IMG/VR virus record: IMGVR_UViG_3300046522_000628
Coordinates: 1-35,973 of that record
DNA length: 35,973 nucleotides
Direction: 5' to 3' (one strand)
Source: a virus
In this document: piece after piece, positions 12,665-35,847 of the stretch
Numbering within the stretch: position 1 is the first letter of the stretch
How the letters are laid out: each line of letters starts with the position of its first letter
Translations under genes and position numbers: made by a program
The notes under the pieces: model-generated
Database searches by the model: none
Told to the model about the DNA's origin: nothing
Seen by the model: only the letters and a program-made list of their open reading frames with translations

Positions 12665-13077
12665 CAGGCGGCTGGCTTCGCTAGGGAGTCGATGCGCTGG
12701 ACGATCCCGTAGATGATGGCGCCATCGTCAGATTTTCGCGGCGCGCCGACCCGGTCCAGCGCATCATGCATGCTGTCGACGAAGCCATCACCGATCAGCA
12801 TGCTGACCGCGCCCAGGCGTGCCTCTAGGTGCGACGCATTTAGGCGAAGCCCGGTCGCCTGACGGTCCAGGTCGAGCAGAGACAGCGCTGCGCTCGACAT
12901 CAGCAGACGAATGTTGGTCGTCTTTTGCTCGTCGACGCGGCGCGGCCATGCCACCAGCTGGGCGATCAACCACTTGAGATCGTCACCCTCGGCGATGAAA
13001 TTATCCTCTTCGCGCAGTCCGAGCAGCTCGCGCATCTCTACCTCACGGCTGCGACGGCCGATCACCAGTTCCATCAT
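12664..13077 (-). CDS. Hypothetical protein between the terminase subunits
   Basis: A 137-residue protein starting at ATG 13077 (or the adjacent ATG 13074), next to GGGAGGGGAGGG. It is largely helical, with KWLIAQLVAWPRRVDEQKTT and SMLIGDGFVDSMHDALDRVG segments. It overlaps the small terminase stop upstream and the large terminase start downstream, so all three are probably made together. Lambda has no gene between Nu1 and A. A role in packaging is possible from position alone; no motif supports it. Confidence 0.72.
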   Translation of the reverse strand: MMELVIGRRSREVEMRELLGLREEDNFIAEGDDLKWLIAQLVAWPRRVDEQKTTNIRLLMSSAALSLLDLDRQATGLRLNASHLEARLGAVSMLIGDGFVDSMHDALDRVGAPRKSDDGAIIYGIVQRIDSLAKPAA

Positions 13078-21958: not shown

Positions 21959-22404
21959 GCGAACAGAGCCCGCTGCAGCGCAGGCTCGGGCGCGAGGCCG
22001 AACAACTCATCGGGCACGTCAAAAAAACCCTGCATCCCGCGAAACGGGATCGGCTCGGCGAGCGCGACCACGTCGGTCAGCACGAAGCCGAAGCGACGCG
22101 GGCCATAATTGCCGAACGCTTCCTCGGTCGCGCTGATCTTCCCGATCAGCTGCTCGCTCTTGCTGCAGGCGGTCAGCGTCGCCGTGGCGATGATCGCGCC
22201 CAGCGGCGGGTTGCGCAGGCGCTCGTCAAACCGGCCCGCGAAGTCGGCCGCGAACTCACGTTCCTCGCCGGTCCAGCGTTTGGCCGCATGGATCGCGATC
22301 GGCCCGCGCACGCCGGTCCACCAATGGCGCGTCTCGATCGACTTGAGACCGATCGCGACCGCCGATGCCCAGGGTTGCCAAAGAGACAGCGCCTTCACGG
22401 TCAA
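21955..22404 (-). CDS. ASCH domain protein
   Basis: A 149-residue protein whose N-terminus, KALSLWQPWASAVAIGLKSI followed by ETRHW, is the hallmark of the ASCH/PUA-like fold. HAAKRW and the late GFVLTDVVALAEPIPFRGMQG segment fit the same fold. ASCH proteins bind RNA or modified nucleosides; one bacterial member is an N4-acetylcytidine amidohydrolase. The exact activity here is unknown. The start is either TTG 22404, which overlaps the dnaN stop (TTGA), or GTG 22398. It sits in the coupled gene chain between the sliding clamp and the methyltransferase. Confidence 0.85.
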   Translation of the reverse strand: MTVKALSLWQPWASAVAIGLKSIETRHWWTGVRGPIAIHAAKRWTGEEREFAADFAGRFDERLRNPPLGAIIATATLTACSKSEQLIGKISATEEAFGNYGPRRFGFVLTDVVALAEPIPFRGMQGFFDVPDELFGLAPEPALQRALFA

Positions 22405-23744
22405 ACCCGCATCGGCATAAGCACGTACAGCCCGCGCGCGTCGTCATTGGCGTCGCGGAACAGCGTCGGTGCGGCCGGGTCGGCCAGCTCGACCCGCATC
22501 GTGTCGCCCTGGATGCGGCCCAGCAATTCGGTCAGGAACGTCCCGTTGAACCCGATCGTCAGCGCCTCGGAATCGTAATCGCCCGGGGCTTCCTCGCGCG
22601 CATCGCCCAACTCCGCCGACTGGCACGACAGCGTCACCATGTCGCGGTCGAGCGCCACCTTGACCGCGCGCGTCTTGCCGTCCGCCATCACCATCACTCG
22701 CCCCGCCGCCGCGGCCAGCGTCTTCGGGTCGACCAGCAGCACCTTGTCATTGCCGCTGGGGATCACGCGCGTGTAATCGGGGAAGGTGCCGTCGACCAGC
22801 TTGGTGGTCAGCACCATGTCGCCCAGGTCGAACCGCGCCTTGCCGGCGTTGATCGCCACCTCGACCGGCCCCTCGAAACCATCGAGCACCTTGTCGAGCA
22901 CGCCGATCGCCTTGCGCGGGACGATCACCCCATTCAACGCACCGGCGCCGTCGGGCTGGGGCAGGTCATAGCGCGCCAGCCGGTGCCCGTCGGTCGCCAC
23001 CGCGCGCAGCACCATCACCACGCCCTCACCGTCGACGCCAGAAGACCCGGTAACGACACCCCTGCTCTCGGTCGCGTGGAGATAGATGCCGTTGAGATAA
23101 TAGCGTGTTTCCTCGGTGCACATGGCGAAGCGCACGCCGTCGATCATCGCGGCCAGGTCGAACGCCGCCAGCTCGAACACATGGTCGAACGCGGCGTCGG
23201 TCATCACCGGGAAATCCTCGACCGGCAGCGTCGGCAGCGTGAAGCGCGCCCGGCCCGCGGTCGCGACGACCTTGCCGGGCTCGAGCGTCAGCGTGATCGT
23301 CGCGTCGCCGTCGATCTTCTTGACGATGTCCGACAACAGCCGTTCGGCCACCGTGGTGCGAAAAGGCAGCGCGTCCGCCGCCTGCTCGACGTCGAGGATC
23401 CGCACGCATTCCATGTCGAGATCGGTCGCGATCAGCGTCGCCTTGCCATGCTCGGCAGAGATCATGACGTTCGACAGGATCGGAATGGTGTTGCGCCGCT
23501 CGACCACCTCGCCGATCCCGGCCAGCGCCGCCTTCAGCTGCTTGGCGACGAAGGCGATGACGCGCGGCTTTCCGTCGTTGCCGGGCGAGTCGGGCAGGTC
23601 CTTCTTGGCCCGGCCCTTGGCCTTGGGCTTGTCGGCCGCGTCGTTCACCTCGGGCGAGGGCTCGGGCGCCGGGGCGTCGTCGCCCGGCTGCTCGATTTCG
23701 ACCGTGTCGGGATTGTCCTCGGGCGCGAGCGTGTCATCGGTCAT
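22401..23744 (-). CDS. dnaN: DNA polymerase III beta subunit (sliding clamp), phage-encoded
   Basis: A 447-residue beta clamp that would tether DNA polymerase to the template. All three clamp domains are present: the first near IGEVVERRNTIPILSNVMIS, the second with the conserved AVATDGHRLARYDLP, the third ending YVLMPMRV, the usual clamp C-terminus. The first ~60 residues are an Asp/Glu/Pro/Ala-rich extension absent from chromosomal DnaN (about 370 residues), ending in a basic patch PKAKGRAKK. I start at ATG 23744, six bases after GGAGACCAGA; ATG 23756 is possible. It overlaps the genes on both sides. A full clamp is uncommon in a temperate siphophage of this size. Confidence 0.95.
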   Translation of the reverse strand: MTDDTLAPEDNPDTVEIEQPGDDAPAPEPSPEVNDAADKPKAKGRAKKDLPDSPGNDGKPRVIAFVAKQLKAALAGIGEVVERRNTIPILSNVMISAEHGKATLIATDLDMECVRILDVEQAADALPFRTTVAERLLSDIVKKIDGDATITLTLEPGKVVATAGRARFTLPTLPVEDFPVMTDAAFDHVFELAAFDLAAMIDGVRFAMCTEETRYYLNGIYLHATESRGVVTGSSGVDGEGVVMVLRAVATDGHRLARYDLPQPDGAGALNGVIVPRKAIGVLDKVLDGFEGPVEVAINAGKARFDLGDMVLTTKLVDGTFPDYTRVIPSGNDKVLLVDPKTLAAAAGRVMVMADGKTRAVKVALDRDMVTLSCQSAELGDAREEAPGDYDSEALTIGFNGTFLTELLGRIQGDTMRVELADPAAPTLFRDANDDARGLYVLMPMRV

Positions 23745-24024
23745 TCTGGTCTCCATCGGAATCGGCGATGCCCGCGCGGATCGACTGCGCCAGGCCGGTG
23801 ATCAGCGTCCCGGCGTCGCGAGCGAACGCGGGATCGTGCTGGTGCGGGCTGATCGGTGCTTCCCACGACTCCCGCTTGCGCGGGCCGGCGATCAGGCGAG
23901 CGGCAAAGGCGTCGAGATAATCGGCATGCCGAACCCGCTGCGCCGCCTCCCCCGCCGCAAAGGCATCGTCCAGGTCGCAGCGATCAAGCTCGCGCGACGA
24001 TGAGGCACAGCCGCCGTCGGTCAT
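23734..24024 (-). CDS. Hypothetical phage protein
   Basis: A 96-residue helical protein starting MTDGGCASSSRELDRCDLDD at ATG 24024, which overlaps the upstream stop (ATGA). The segment AGEAAQRVRHADYLDAFAAR is a likely amphipathic helix. The C-terminus is Asp-rich and overlaps the start of the clamp gene by eleven bases, so the clamp's ribosome site lies inside this gene. No family recognised. Confidence 0.7.
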   Translation of the reverse strand: MTDGGCASSSRELDRCDLDDAFAAGEAAQRVRHADYLDAFAARLIAGPRKRESWEAPISPHQHDPAFARDAGTLITGLAQSIRAGIADSDGDQNDR

Positions 24025-26533: not shown

Positions 26534-27028
26534 TCAGCCCGGGGGCGCAGGCCGTCGCGCGGTCAGCGATGCGCGCAGCCCGGCGACGGCGTCGGCCAGC
26601 TCGTCGGTCTCACGCAGCGCGTCCTCGATCTCGCGCGGGCTCATCGGCTTGCTGTCAGCGACGCGGGCGGCGAGCAGCTTGATCACGTCGCCGGCCTCGC
26701 TCGCGATGCAGCCCAGGTGCATCGGCAGGCTCGCCTCGTCACCGGCATCGCCGGCCGGGACCAGCACGAACCCCTGCCGCCGCGCCAGCGCGCGGGTGAT
26801 GTGCGGATGGCCGGGGCGGCCGATGCCGCGATCCTCGATCTTGGCGACCTGGTCGATCCGGGCGAACGCCCGAGTCGTGCGCGAGCACAGGTTGGAAATG
26901 TGCGACTGCTTGGCCTCGAGCACCGGCTCGAGCCGGGCCTGCCCGCCCGCCGCGTCGACCGCGTCGTCAGTCGCGATCTTGAGGTCGATCTCGTCGTGCG
27001 ACAGCGAGAGGTCGCGGGCGTAGCTCAT
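26534..27028 (-). CDS. CII-like phage regulatory protein
   Basis: A 164-residue protein. The N-terminal half carries a helix-turn-helix-like pattern (DAVDAAGGQARLEPVLEAKQ, then SHISNLCSRTTRAFARIDQV) typical of the phage CII/CP76-type regulators; the rest is helical, with a C-terminal region that may oligomerise. It is the second gene of the minus-strand early operon, directly after the Cro-like gene, which is the lambda cII slot. The ATG at 27028 overlaps the Cro-like stop (ATGA). By analogy it would favour lysogeny by activating repressor or recombinase transcription; that is inferred. Confidence 0.7.
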   Translation of the reverse strand: MSYARDLSLSHDEIDLKIATDDAVDAAGGQARLEPVLEAKQSHISNLCSRTTRAFARIDQVAKIEDRGIGRPGHPHITRALARRQGFVLVPAGDAGDEASLPMHLGCIASEAGDVIKLLAARVADSKPMSPREIEDALRETDELADAVAGLRASLTARRPAPPG

Positions 27029-27348
27029 GCCGCTTCCCCCACCCCAGCGTCCGCTGTTGCGGATTGCTGGCCCAAAGGCTGGGTGATGGACGGCGCGGCG
27101 TTATCGCCTGACACGTCCGCCCCCTGCCCTTTATTCGCCGCATCCTGCTCGGCGATGAAGTCGAGCAGCTTCTGACCCAGGGTCAGGCTGACCGATCGGC
27201 CGCCGCGGAGATTGGTGAGCAGCGCGCCGTCGTTGTTGGCGTCGAGCCCGAAGCGAGTCGCCGACATGCTCGGCGTGCGCGCAAGGAAGTCCTCGATCTG
27301 CTGCAACAGCGCCTTGTTGGGGTCGGAACTGGGAAGGATGGTGGTCAT
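27025..27348 (-). CDS. Cro-like small DNA-binding protein
   Basis: A 107-residue protein starting MTTILPSSDPNKALLQQIED at ATG 27348. Residues of about 20-65 (FLARTPSMSATRFGLDANND, then LLTNLRGGRSVSLTLGQKLL) form a compact helix-turn-helix pattern that recurs in small sphingomonad and rhizobial phage regulators. The tail is Ala/Gly/Gln-rich. It is the first gene of the early operon and is divergent from the repressor, the position of Cro. No ribosome site is visible and the predicted transcript start is only a few bases upstream, so its mRNA may be nearly leaderless. Confidence 0.75.
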   Translation of the reverse strand: MTTILPSSDPNKALLQQIEDFLARTPSMSATRFGLDANNDGALLTNLRGGRSVSLTLGQKLLDFIAEQDAANKGQGADVSGDNAAPSITQPLGQQSATADAGVGEAA

Positions 27349-27355
27349 GGGGAGC

Positions 27356-27387
27356 GTTGGATAATGAGATATTTCCAATGACGCAAG
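27356..27387 (-). promoter_or_regulatory. Early promoter with operator (PR-like) for the Cro-like operon
   Basis: On the minus strand TTGCGT (27386-27381), a 17-base spacer and TATCCA (27363-27358) form a promoter just upstream of the Cro-like ATG. The spacer holds a dyad, TTGGA...TCCAA, suited to repressor binding. The block matches 26 of 32 bases of the block at 28654-28685 in inverted orientation. Confidence 0.7.
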
Positions 27388-27395
27388 CGGCAATT

Positions 27396-27442
27396 GTGGA
27401 AAATTCTCCACCTGCCGCAATCCTGGCGCATGGGATATTCCC
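27396..27442. promoter_or_regulatory. Two further candidate operator dyads upstream of the repressor gene
   Basis: GTGGAAAATTCTCCAC (27396-27411) has five-base arms plus an inner AATT. TGGGATATTCCCA (27431-27443) has five-base arms. Both share the GGA...TCC outline with the main operator. They lie between that promoter and the repressor start, where the repressor or the Cro-like protein could tune repressor transcription. Confidence 0.55.
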
Positions 27443-27449
27443 AACGCCG

Positions 27450-28193
27450 ATGGCGGGGGACGACCAAAACAACGAACCTTCCCGGCTTTGGGAAGTGTTC
27501 GATTCGATTCGCCCGGCCGATCTCAGCTGGGCGGAATGGACCCGTCGCGCGCACGTCTCGGTCAGCTTCTTCACCGACATCAGGCGCAAGGGCACCAAGC
27601 CCAGCTATGACAAATTGGGCCGCGTGCTCGGTGTGGTCGGCATGTCGCTGTCCGATTTCCACGCGCTCGAATCGGAACGCGATGGCGCGCCGCTGATGGC
27701 GCTACATTCGCCGCGCACCCCGTTCACCTCAATCGGCGATCCGCGCGACGTGCCCATGCTCGGCACCGCCCAGGCCGCCGATTTCCAGGTGACCGCCGAC
27801 GGCACCATGGTGTTCGCCGAACAGATCGACGTTCATCTCGACGAGGTGATCGACATGGTCCGCCGCCCGCCGGCGTTGAAGGACCGCAAGACGGTCTATT
27901 CGCTGACCGTGCGCGGCACCTCGCTCAAGCCCAAGTTCGAGGATGGCGATCCGATCTATGTCGACCCCGAACAGCGCCCGTCGATCGGCGACATCGTCGT
28001 CGTCCAGCTGATGACGCGCGACGAGGAAGGCGAAGGCCGGATCGCCAGCGTGCTGATCAAGGAACTGGTGCGCCGCGGCTCGGATTATATCGAGCTCGAG
28101 CAGTACAACCCGCCGCTGCGTTTCCGCATCGCCGCGCGCCAGGTGGCGTCGATCCACCGCTGGGTGCCGTGGCGCGAACTCGTCAGCTTCTAA
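27450..28193 (+). CDS. CI-like phage repressor, S24/LexA-type
   Basis: A 247-residue lysogeny repressor. The N-terminal helix-turn-helix is at about residues 20-60 (LSWAEWTRRAHVSVSFFTDI, then RRKGTKPSYDKLGRVLG). The C-terminal S24 domain has the catalytic Ser in RGTSLKPKFEDGDPI and the likely Lys in ASVLIKELVRR. The hinge contains MLGTAQAADFQV; no clear Ala-Gly cleavage pair is seen, so RecA-induced self-cleavage is uncertain. I start at ATG 27450, after the operator dyads; the frame is open back to a TTG at 27357 inside the operator. It should repress both flanking early promoters. Confidence 0.9.
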   Translation: MAGDDQNNEPSRLWEVFDSIRPADLSWAEWTRRAHVSVSFFTDIRRKGTKPSYDKLGRVLGVVGMSLSDFHALESERDGAPLMALHSPRTPFTSIGDPRDVPMLGTAQAADFQVTADGTMVFAEQIDVHLDEVIDMVRRPPALKDRKTVYSLTVRGTSLKPKFEDGDPIYVDPEQRPSIGDIVVVQLMTRDEEGEGRIASVLIKELVRRGSDYIELEQYNPPLRFRIAARQVASIHRWVPWRELVSF

Positions 28194-28194
28194 C

Positions 28195-28581
28195 CTAGAA
28201 TTTCGTCACTGCCGCAGGGAAGCCGGTGAACGGTTGCGACTCGCAGCGCCCGGTCGACTTCACGTAGAGCAACGCACCACGGCGCCCCGACGAGGTCAGG
28301 ATGGTCTGCTCGCCGCTGGTGCGATCGATGACGTTGATCGCATAGTCGGACGCGCCAGGCGCCGGATTGCCGCGCTGGTCGAGCGTGATCCGCGATGGCT
28401 GCACCTCGGCGATATCGCGCAGCAGCGGGCAATCGCCCTCGCAATATTTGCCGCTGGCGAGGTCGATCCGATAGGTCGTGCGGTACGGCGTCGCCCCGTC
28501 GCGATCGCCGCCGGCGACGGTCATCGTACCGGTGCACACCAGGTTGAACGCAGCCGCCGCGGCTGCCGCCATGATCCACAT
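28195..28581 (-). CDS. Secreted-protein-like gene, candidate lysogenic conversion (moron)
   Basis: A 128-residue protein with a likely signal sequence (MWIMAAAAAAAFNLVCTGTM), so probably exported; the Cys near residue 16 could allow lipidation, though the motif is not classical. The mature part has paired Cys residues (YCEGDCPLL) and ends SQPFTGFPAAVTKF. Proteins ending in a similar F.GFP...TKF pattern are widespread in sphingomonads as unknowns. It lies next to the repressor, convergent with a one-base gap, and has its own promoter and a GGGAGGG ribosome site before ATG 28581. This suits expression in the lysogen. The function is unknown. Confidence 0.8.
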   Translation of the reverse strand: MWIMAAAAAAAFNLVCTGTMTVAGGDRDGATPYRTTYRIDLASGKYCEGDCPLLRDIAEVQPSRITLDQRGNPAPGASDYAINVIDRTSGEQTILTSSGRRGALLYVKSTGRCESQPFTGFPAAVTKF

Positions 28582-28601
28582 CGCAAGGCCCTCCCCGGAC
28601 G

Positions 28602-28610
28602 ATCATAGCA
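28602..28610 (-). promoter_or_regulatory. Extended -10 promoter for the secreted-protein gene
   Basis: On the minus strand TGCTATGAT forms an extended -10 element (28610-28602). The start would be near 28595, giving a leader of about 14 bases that contains the ribosome site. No good -35 at 17 bases is visible, as is usual for extended -10 promoters. It is separate from the operator-bound promoter to its right. Confidence 0.55.
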
Positions 28611-28634
28611 CGAGGCGCGCCGCAAGGGCCGCAA

Positions 28635-28685
28635 GGATATGTCCAACGCCTCGCTTGACGCATTGGATATTTCTCATTATCCACC
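28635..28685 (+). promoter_or_regulatory. Early promoter with operators (PL-like) for the plus-strand operon
   Basis: TTGACG (28655-28660), a 17-base spacer and TATCCA (28678-28683) form a promoter 30 bases before the first gene. The spacer contains TTGGAT...TCC-type dyad sequence matching the Cro-side operator in inverted orientation. A further site, GGATATGTCC, lies at 28635-28644. Repressor binding here would shut off the operon that ends in the recombinase gene. Confidence 0.68.
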
Positions 28686-28712
28686 GCTCCCGTTGAACGA
28701 ACGGAGGGCGAC

Positions 28713-29138
28713 ATGCTCAAGGCTATTGCAGAATTCCCCTATGCCGGCAGCGAGGCGCTGCTCGGCGATCGCCGCGTGCGGATCAACCGGGTTGAACCCG
28801 ACGGCCGGCGCTTCGTCACCGGCAAGGGAGTGGCGCGCACCGTCGACCTCGACCAGCTGAGCGACGCCAGCCTGCCCGCCGACCCGATGGGCCGCTGGTT
28901 CGCCGAGCGCGCCGCGACCCTCGAGGGCGGCGCCTGCCCGACCCCGACCGAGGATCTCTATCGCGATTTTCTGACCTTCTCCCGCGCCCGCGGCGTCGAG
29001 GAATATCAGACCCCGACCCGCATGGCGTTCGGCCACTTCCTCAACCTCAAGGGCCATGGCGCCACCGTCCGCAAGGTCGACGGGAAGGCGCAACGCTGCG
29101 TCGACCTGATGCTGCGCCCGATGGCGGAGGCGGCGTGA
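28713..29138 (+). CDS. Hypothetical protein, first gene of the plus-strand early operon
   Basis: A 141-residue protein with a GGAGG ribosome site before ATG 28713. The first part (ALLGDRRVRINRVEPDGRRF, VTGKGVARTVDLDQL) looks beta-rich. Residues of about 85-135 (LYRDFLTFSRARGVEEYQTP, FGHFLNLKGHGATVRKVDGK) resemble the winged-helix modules at the C-terminus of D5/P4-type helicases. It may therefore bind DNA. It is the first gene after the PL-like promoter; lambda places the antiterminator N there, but no N-type Arg-rich motif is seen. Confidence 0.75.
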   Translation: MLKAIAEFPYAGSEALLGDRRVRINRVEPDGRRFVTGKGVARTVDLDQLSDASLPADPMGRWFAERAATLEGGACPTPTEDLYRDFLTFSRARGVEEYQTPTRMAFGHFLNLKGHGATVRKVDGKAQRCVDLMLRPMAEAA

Positions 29139-30883: not shown

Positions 30884-31107
30884 CCCTCCATCGCCCCGTC
30901 TCCGCAATATTACCTGACCTGATCCTCGATCTCGCGCTAGCAATCGCCGAGGATATGGCCGTCGAGGATCACGCGGCCGAGTCGCGATACCCTGGAGCCG
31001 CCGCCCGCCATGACCAACACCCGCCCGCGCGTCGCGATCTACGCCCGCTTTTCGACGGACCTGCAAAACGCCCGCTCGGCCGAGGACCAGCTTCGCGTCT
31101 GCCGTGA
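30880..31107 (+). CDS. Uncertain 75-codon gene overlapping the recombinase start
   Basis: GTG 30880 overlaps the upstream stop (GTGA) and opens a 75-codon frame that ends 98 bases inside the recombinase gene. The first half (TLHRPVSAILPDLILDLALA, IAEDMAVEDHAAE) looks like a normal helical protein; the second half is Arg/Pro-rich, as expected from an out-of-frame reading of the recombinase gene. A small protein just ahead of a serine integrase could be a directionality factor, but no motif supports it. Confidence 0.4.
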   Translation: MTLHRPVSAILPDLILDLALAIAEDMAVEDHAAESRYPGAAARHDQHPPARRDLRPLFDGPAKRPLGRGPASRLP

Positions 31108-32689
31108 CCATGCGCTGCGCATGGGGTGGGACGTGGTCGAGGTCTATTCGGACCTGGCGATATCCGGCACCACCAACCACCGCCCCGGCCTGAATTCGCT
31201 GCTTGCCGCCGCCGAGGCGCGCGCGTTCGACATCGTGCTGGCGGAGGCGCTCGACCGCGTGTCGCGCAACCAGGCCGACATCGCCACCATCTATCAACGC
31301 CTGCAATTCGCCGACGTGCGGATCCACACCATCAGCGAGGCGGAGGTCAGCGAGCTCCATATCGGCATGCTCGGCACGATGAACGCGCTGTACGTCAAGG
31401 AACTGGCGGCGAAGATCCGGCGCGGCCAGCGCGGCGCGGTGTCGCGCGGGCGCGTGCCGGGCGGGCTGTGCTACGGCTATGCCACCGACAACCGTCTGCT
31501 GCCCGACGGCACCGTCGACCGCGGCCACCGCAAGATCGTCGAGGACGAAGCCGCGATCATCCGCCGCATCTTCGCCGAGCGGCTGGCCGGCGACAGCACC
31601 AAGGCGATCGCCCAGCGCCTCAACCGCGACGGCGTGCGCGGGCCGCGTGGCGGATTATGGTCGAGCTCGACGCTCAGCGGCTCGCGCGATCGCGCCAACG
31701 GCATCCTGCACAACCCGGCCTATGCCGGCCGTATCGTCTATAATCGCGTGCGGATGGTGAAGGACCCGGTCACTCGCCAGCGGCTCAGCCGGTCGAACAA
31801 GGTCGACGAGCGCGTCGAGGAAGTCGCCGAGCAGCTGCGCATCATCGACGAGGCCGACTGGCAGGCGATCCAGGCCGACCGCGTCGCGCGCGCGCATATC
31901 CCCTGGCATCGCCAGACCCGTCCGAAACACATGCTGTCGGGGCTGGTCCGCTGCGCGCGGTGCGGGGGCAGCTTCACCGTGGTCAGCAAGGACCGCTGGG
32001 CGTGCCGCAACCACCGCGAGACGGGCACGTGCGACAACCCGCGCCGCATTGCCACCGCCGACCTCGAGCATCGGGTGATGGACGGGCTGCAGCGCCAGCT
32101 GCTCGCGCCCGATGTCGTGGCGAAGGTGGTCAAGCGCTATCACGACAAGCGCGCCGATCAGCGCCACGCGATGGCCCAGGGCCTGCGCGGCGCGGAACAG
32201 GCGGTCGACGATGGCAGGGCGGCAATCGGCCGGCTGGTCGCGGCGATGGCCGACGGCATGGACATGGCCGAGGTGCGCGACGAACTCGCCCGCCGGCGTG
32301 AGGCGCTGGCGATCGCCGAGGCGCAGCTGGCCGAGCACCAGGCGCTGCCGCCGATCATCCTGCATCCGCAGATCGTCGAGCAATACCGCCGCCGTATCGC
32401 GATGATCGGCGACGCCGTGGTCAAGGGCGAGCGCGCCGCCAAGTTCCTGCCGGTGATCCGCGGCCTGATCGACTCGATCGCGATCGACGACGACCCCGCC
32501 GAACCCAACAGCGCGCGGGTTGAGGTCATGGGCAGTCTCGCCACCGTGCTCCGCATCGCGACCGGCGAACCGGTGCAGGATCGTCATGTGAGGGAAAACG
32601 GCCCCGGCGCTGGAGCCCGGCGAATCTCCACCCGGACTGTCGGGGTGGTAGCGGAGGAGGGACTTGAACCCCCGACCCCAGGATTATGA
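31010..32689 (+). CDS. Large serine recombinase (phage integrase)
   Basis: A 559-residue integrase of the large serine recombinase family, which would insert and excise the prophage. The resolvase domain (about 1-150) has the catalytic Ser15 in YARFSTDLQNARSAEDQ and the Arg-containing LAEALDRVSRNQADIA. The recombinase domain covers about 165-300. A zinc ribbon (CARCGGSF ... CRNHRETGTCDNPRRI) lies at about 316-350, and a coiled coil follows. The last ~15 residues (VVAEEGLEPPTPGL) are encoded by the antisense strand of a tRNA-Met gene, and the stop codon overlaps the anticodon position. It is the last gene of the plus-strand early operon. Confidence 0.95.
   Translation: MTNTRPRVAIYARFSTDLQNARSAEDQLRVCRDHALRMGWDVVEVYSDLAISGTTNHRPGLNSLLAAAEARAFDIVLAEALDRVSRNQADIATIYQRLQFADVRIHTISEAEVSELHIGMLGTMNALYVKELAAKIRRGQRGAVSRGRVPGGLCYGYATDNRLLPDGTVDRGHRKIVEDEAAIIRRIFAERLAGDSTKAIAQRLNRDGVRGPRGGLWSSSTLSGSRDRANGILHNPAYAGRIVYNRVRMVKDPVTRQRLSRSNKVDERVEEVAEQLRIIDEADWQAIQADRVARAHIPWHRQTRPKHMLSGLVRCARCGGSFTVVSKDRWACRNHRETGTCDNPRRIATADLEHRVMDGLQRQLLAPDVVAKVVKRYHDKRADQRHAMAQGLRGAEQAVDDGRAAIGRLVAAMADGMDMAEVRDELARRREALAIAEAQLAEHQALPPIILHPQIVEQYRRRIAMIGDAVVKGERAAKFLPVIRGLIDSIAIDDDPAEPNSARVEVMGSLATVLRIATGEPVQDRHVRENGPGAGARRISTRTVGVVAEEGLEPPTPGL
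32646..32689. other. Probable attachment-site region (attL/attR) in the tRNA 3' half
   Basis: The phage recombinase gene overlaps the tRNA-Met gene over these bases, and host genes begin directly after. A crossover within the shared 3' half of the tRNA would keep the tRNA intact on both sides. The exact core cannot be drawn without the left junction, which is outside the window. If the crossover lies here, the last codons of the recombinase change on excision. Confidence 0.6.
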
Positions 32690-32722
32690 TTCCCGTGCTC
32701 TAACCAGCTGAGCTACTCCGCC
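32646..32722 (-). tRNA. tRNA-Met (CAT)
   Basis: A complete 77-base cloverleaf on the minus strand with CCA encoded. The acceptor stem is 7 bp (first pair G-U), the T arm is GGGGG-TTCAAGT-CCCTC, and the anticodon arm is CGGGA-ATCATAA-TCCTG, giving anticodon CAT at 32688-32686. The arms look like the elongator tRNA-Met of alphaproteobacteria, not the initiator; a lysidine-modified tRNA-Ile2 is a less likely alternative. Confidence 0.95.
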
Positions 32723-35819: not shown

Positions 35820-35847
35820 TTTTCTCTCAATGGAATATAATCACGCA

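Follow-up and report, generated by a model that had tools for sequence, protein, structure and literature searches.

The cI message of phage lambda is leaderless, and its operator OR2 lies near position −42 of the promoter PRM. Among the lambdoid heteroimmune cassettes, e.g. those of lambda, 434, 21 and P22, operators, cI and cro are exchanged as a unit, and it is by such cassette exchange that lambdoid phages of different immunity differ. The CI repressor of lambda binds OL and OR, which have three sites each, represses PL and PR and drives PRM (PMC11077077). In Staphylococcus phage phi11 divergent repressor genes are separated by three homologous operators (PMC3991615). The present analysis concerns a repressor gene and its flanks in IMG/VR record IMGVR_UViG_3300046522_000628, the whole of which (35,973 nucleotides) is referred to as the window. 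They very probably form the immunity region, lambda-like in its working, of a temperate phage of Sphingomonas.

As in lambda, operator clusters alike in sequence flank the repressor gene on its two sides and are predicted to govern a pair of early promoters facing outward; one side has cro- and CII-like genes and the other the integration operon, the middle cro-side operator is near −42/−43 of the repressor promoter, and a leaderless repressor message is predicted. Unlike those of lambda, the operators are 15 bp in length and 31–34 bp apart from centre to centre, and the two sets are unrelated in sequence. Further differences from lambda are a serine instead of a tyrosine integrase, a probably leaderless cro message, an extra open reading frame (ORF) convergent with the repressor gene, and an OL in which one site is sure and the other weak. 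The phi11 switch, too, has three homologous operators between its divergent repressor genes.

The block at 27356–27387 is identical to the reverse complement of 28654–28685 at 26 of 32 positions, as an earlier note on this DNA had counted, and the match extends to 27345–27389 and 28652–28696 (37/45). The best score obtained with 300 dinucleotide shuffles of the intergenic region was 23/32, and the best other 32-mer match within the window was 22/32. The TTGCGT and TTGACG −35 hexamers, 17-base spacers and TATCCA −10 hexamers that the same note had read in the blocks are as described. Operators were ranked over the whole 36-kb window using a symmetric matrix for which the two promoter sites (A and E) of the window phage and of its close relative L003 (IMGVR_UViG_3300025272_000018) were the sole input. 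The features of the region are as follows.

27358–27386, minus strand: predicted leftward early promoter (PR analogue), TTGCGT-17-TATCCA, by direct reading.
27364–27378, minus strand: predicted operator A (OR1-like), TTGGAAATATCTCAT, within the 17-bp spacer of the leftward promoter; identical in L003.
27396–27410, plus strand: predicted operator B (OR2-like), GTGGAAAATTCTCCA, fourth best matrix site in the window.
27412–27439, plus strand: predicted repressor promoter (PRM analogue), CTGCCG-16-GATATT, with a weak −35, by inference.
27430–27444, minus strand: predicted operator C (OR3-like), TTGGGAATATCCCAT, third best matrix site in the window.
27450–28193, plus strand: S24 repressor (CI analogue), 247 aa; Pfam PF00717 E=3e-10, phrog_4 transcriptional repressor E=2e-11.
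28632–28646, minus strand: weak candidate operator D (OL2-like), TTGGACATATCCTTG, rank about 136 in the window.
28655–28683, plus strand: predicted rightward early promoter (PL analogue), TTGACG-17-TATCCA, by direct reading.
28663–28677, plus strand: predicted operator E (OL1-like), TTGGATATTTCTCAT, within the 17-bp spacer of the rightward promoter; identical in L003.

On sequence grounds A, B, C and E are solid operator assignments and D a probable one. A and E fill the 17-bp spacers of the two outward predicted promoters. B and C both lie between the repressor and the cro-position gene, giving three cro-side operators, the outer of which (C, identical in L003) is over the repressor promoter and overlaps its predicted −10; B is centred at about −43 of that promoter. 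On the far side E is sure and D marginal, the support for the latter being its half-site TTGGA and its 31-bp distance from E, both kept in L003. Of three additional GGA...TCC dyads reported previously, the two corresponding to B and C thus rank high by the matrix, while the third, corresponding to D, is weak. The start codon of the cro-position gene is found 9 nt past the leftward −10, from which a leaderless message is predicted; the related locus L106 has TTGC-17-TATCCA with the same 9-nt gap. The rightward promoter is followed by a leader with GGAGG ahead of 28713. The repressor start codon is 10 nt past the predicted −10 of its promoter, the GATATT of which is kept in L003, and in the relatives a −10-like hexamer occurs inside or beside operator C. 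The best operator-like sites outside the immunity region, at 12995–13009 (ATGAAATTATCCTCT) and, in host DNA, at 35830–35844 (ATGGAATATAATCAC), are probably due to chance.

The PF00717 match of the repressor is above the cut-off, and its C-terminal S24 domain contains a Ser-Lys dyad (S158 and K204) which is invariant in the repressor alignment. The AlphaFold model, good only for about residues 11–78, folds residues 12–78 into five helices (pLDDT 64–89). Comparison of this part with XRE domains in the PDB using Foldseek gave a probability of 1.00 with E-values above 0.03, for which reason an N-terminal helix-turn-helix (HTH) domain is only moderately supported. The named phage repressors closest in sequence include the C repressor of Rhizobium phage 16-3 and those of Rhizobium phage RR1-A and Aurantimonas phage AmM-1, with about 31–35% identity over the C-terminal part; all are S24 repressors of alphaproteobacterial phages, as here, and the similarity to the 16-3 repressor is detectable over residues 73–236 only.

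The repressor of L003 is 81% identical to that of the window, and both blocks flank it, with B and C kept at the same places; a search for the block beside S24 repressors of related prophages, as had been suggested, thus finds it here. The two L003 blocks share only 19 bp, CATTGGAWATWTCTCATTA, which represent the operator and promoter spacer. In an exact-block scan of IMG/VR only the hit in the L003 contig had these genes around the block; at the other ten hits neither the repressor nor the genes beside it gave a match.

A second relative, L116 (IMGVR_UViG_3300025909_000012), was found via the first rightward gene and not via the repressor. Its DNA matches that of L003 at 82% up to L003 position 4684 and at 94% from 6263 on; for L003 4685–6262 nothing in L116 could be aligned. 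The replaced piece has sharp edges, extending from a point in the 3' end of cro to the ribosome-binding site just ahead of the first rightward gene (28713–29138 in the window), and contains both promoters, the repressor gene and most of cro. In L116 the repressor is a 112-aa Cro/C1-type HTH protein (Pfam HTH_26, above cut-off) with no protease domain, the cro-position protein is an HTH protein (HTH_31 and HTH_3 matches under cut-off), and the operators have a matched sequence of their own, GTTCGCACATTACAAAC-like, on both sides of the repressor. This exchange of the whole unit speaks for a functional link between the repressor and the two blocks that flank it, and, judged from the alignments, the immunity unit is exchangeable as a cassette between relatives. 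The whole unit is exchanged between otherwise related phages as in the lambdoid heteroimmune cassettes; unlike in those, the left boundary falls in the 3' end of cro, and one of the repressors is a small HTH protein without a protease domain.

Scanning of genome contigs with the repressor alignment revealed no relative, and Sphingomonas genomes were therefore located via a host gene and then searched. Among the distant Sphingomonadaceae relatives (repressors about 35–48% identical), several possess matched palindromes flanking the repressor on both sides; in L109, L111 and L114 three operators lie on the cro side, and the far side has two or three. Every locus in the set has, at both outward predicted promoters, a −35 of TTG type and then a 17-bp spacer filled by an operator; at the rightward promoter the −35 is TTGAC in the seven S24-type loci compared and TTGCG in L116. 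Within each of seven cassettes the operators of the two outward promoters are the same, and the operator differs between cassettes. With the seven leftward spacers set against the seven rightward ones, the true pairing was the single best of 5040 permutations, a test that carries some selection, the spacers having been picked by us from the −35 position and the loci chosen partly for paired sites. Counted from the predicted repressor −10, the centre of the middle operator is at −43 in the window and at −43.5 in L109, L111 and L114, and the distance from B to C is 34–35 bp in all four measured cassettes. The repressor start codon, in the loci read by eye, is 6–10 nt past the predicted −10, with the exception of L111, in which the −10 is unclear; leaderless repressor messages are therefore predicted. 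By the same prediction cro is leaderless in the window, L003, L106, L108 and L116, and not in L109, L111 and L114. The likeness to lambda OR and OL proposed in the earlier note gains support from the retention of both blocks in L003, from the replacement of both blocks along with the repressor in L116, from the operator pairing across seven cassettes, and from a geometry like that of OR1/OR2/OR3. The operators of L109, L111 and L114, which are of the GGGA-N4-TCCC or GGGC type, resemble site C of the window; this suggests that the distant cassettes and the window share related operator recognition. The operator sequence is unrelated to that of lambda, as it had looked to that note, but resembles the GGGA-N4-TCCC operators inferred for these distant Sphingomonadaceae relatives.

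While the sites, their pairing, their conservation and the exchange of the cassette can be read from the sequence, we infer the following scheme for the binding of the repressor, the promoter starts, activation through B, autorepression through C, looping and induction; repression at A and E is supported in it only by anatomy and comparison. On the cro side the S24 repressor would occupy A, B and C, between its own gene and that in the cro position; upstream of the integrase operon it would occupy E and probably D as well. A and E lie inside the promoter spacers, and their occupation would shut both early operons, that is cro, CII and replication leftward and the integrase rightward. B, at about −43, is suitably placed for helping to activate the repressor promoter, and C, over its −10, for limiting it. 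A loop may form between repressor molecules bound on the two sides, which are about 1.3 kb apart. Inactivation of the repressor, presumably through S24 self-cleavage, would release both operons.

The inverted blocks could also be read as recombination sites, the 1.26-kb repressor segment being flipped as a phase switch by the serine recombinase or by homologous recombination, as the segment lies between 45-nt inverted repeats, with a serine recombinase gene not far away. The recombinase, however, is a large integrase (phrog_95) beside tRNA-Met and not a small invertase, and repressor and cro are divergent in one and the same orientation in the eight loci compared, by which inversion is rejected. 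The part shared by the L003 blocks is moreover down to the 19 bp of operator and promoter spacer exactly, and the extra single copies B and C fit operators, not crossover sites; an invertible segment is accordingly considered highly improbable. We attach just as little probability to the likeness of the blocks being due to chance, or to a recent promoter duplication devoid of operator function: the promoter hexamers themselves add to the identity, but the similarity is above all shuffles, is kept in L003, and recurs as the same paired design with different sequences in unrelated cassettes. It is also unlikely, if somewhat less so, that the main protein binding to the blocks is not the S24 repressor but the cro-position protein or a regulator of the host. 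Cro normally shares operators with CI (PMC11077077), so that sequence alone cannot separate the two; yet an exchange of the repressor gene brings new operators with it in a single cassette, for which a host factor would not account, and the position of C over the repressor's own −10 fits autoregulation.

Several observations weigh against a lambda-like immunity region, which remains the preferred reading. A strict sigma-70 scan of the region revealed no consensus promoter; the promoter calls therefore rest on spacing, conservation and comparison, and the −10 assignments are soft. The leftward −10 is not kept in L003, where it reads TAAGCC and the start region has drifted. Operator D is marginal by the matrix, and in L107, L110 and L112 no convincing matched flanking pair was found. 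The leftward promoter does face a gene in the cro position, but the designation of that gene as Cro-like in the earlier note is by position only, since searches of Pfam, PHROGs, NCBIfam and the PDB gave no recognisable DNA-binding domain in its product. Lastly, the S24 cleavage dipeptide is atypical, lacking Ala-Gly (or Cys-Gly): the sequence is QAAD in the window (residues 108–111, nucleotides 27771–27782) and in L003, and mostly LGAD in the relatives, despite the intact Ser-Lys dyad. Self-cleavage and the route of induction are uncertain because of this difference; membership of the S24 domain family is unaffected.

These data place the lambda-type double-operator switch, itself a known kind, in Sphingomonas phages. 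Among the open-licence papers listed none dealt with a Sphingomonas phage switch, and phage switches in this host group appear little studied. With at least seven cassettes having different operator sequences and one geometry, repressor–operator specificity, cassette exchange and superinfection immunity become directly testable. More tentatively, and with the odds rather against so broad a statement, temperate phages of the Sphingomonadaceae might share a compact modular immunity unit in which operators fill the spacers of both early promoters, the repressor −10 lies inside a third operator, the repressor and often cro are leaderless, and the whole is exchanged even between S24 and small protease-less repressors, which would yield many operator specificities on one fixed frame.

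The genes neighbouring the repressor and its operators are listed below.

26534–27028, minus strand: CII-like activator; phrog_101 E=5.5e-12, Pfam Phage_CP76 just under cut-off.
27025–27348, minus strand: cro-position gene, 107 aa, with a DNA-binding role proposed from position alone.
28195–28581, minus strand: 128-aa ORF of unknown function between repressor and OL; 72% in L003, an unrelated 255-aa ORF instead in L116.
28713–29138, plus strand: first gene of the rightward operon, of unknown function; 81% in L003, 76% in L116.
31010–32689, plus strand: large serine recombinase/integrase; phrog_95 integrase E=3e-95, Pfam Resolvase, Recombinase and zinc ribbon.

The cro-position protein is 75% identical over 88 aa in L003, and some of its homologues match phrog_7669, of unknown function; its AlphaFold model (pLDDT 60) is too poor for use. 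The 128-aa ORF occupies a position like that of lambda rex but is convergent with the repressor. The rightward operon consists of small genes with the large serine integrase last. In another locus, L121, the recombinase is 58% alike, and of the listed ORFs upstream of it none was recognised as a repressor.

The right end of the window is bacterial, containing a tRNA-Met and a potassium transporter gene, the best matches of which (about 75–83% identical) are mostly from Sphingomonas; in Sphingomonas genomes the same tRNA-Met adjoins the transporter gene. The element is therefore, as judged from this flanking DNA, a prophage integrated at or beside tRNA-Met of a Sphingomonas-like host. The tRNA-Met is the likely attachment site; no second copy was found within the window. 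It is located at 32646–32722 on the minus strand, and the serine recombinase gene, whose stop is at 32689, runs into it with its 3' end, so that the C-terminus of the recombinase (EEGLEPPTPGL) is read from tRNA sequence. Further to the left, at 22401–23756 on the minus strand, the phage encodes a DNA polymerase III beta clamp with all three DnaN domains (phrog_947).
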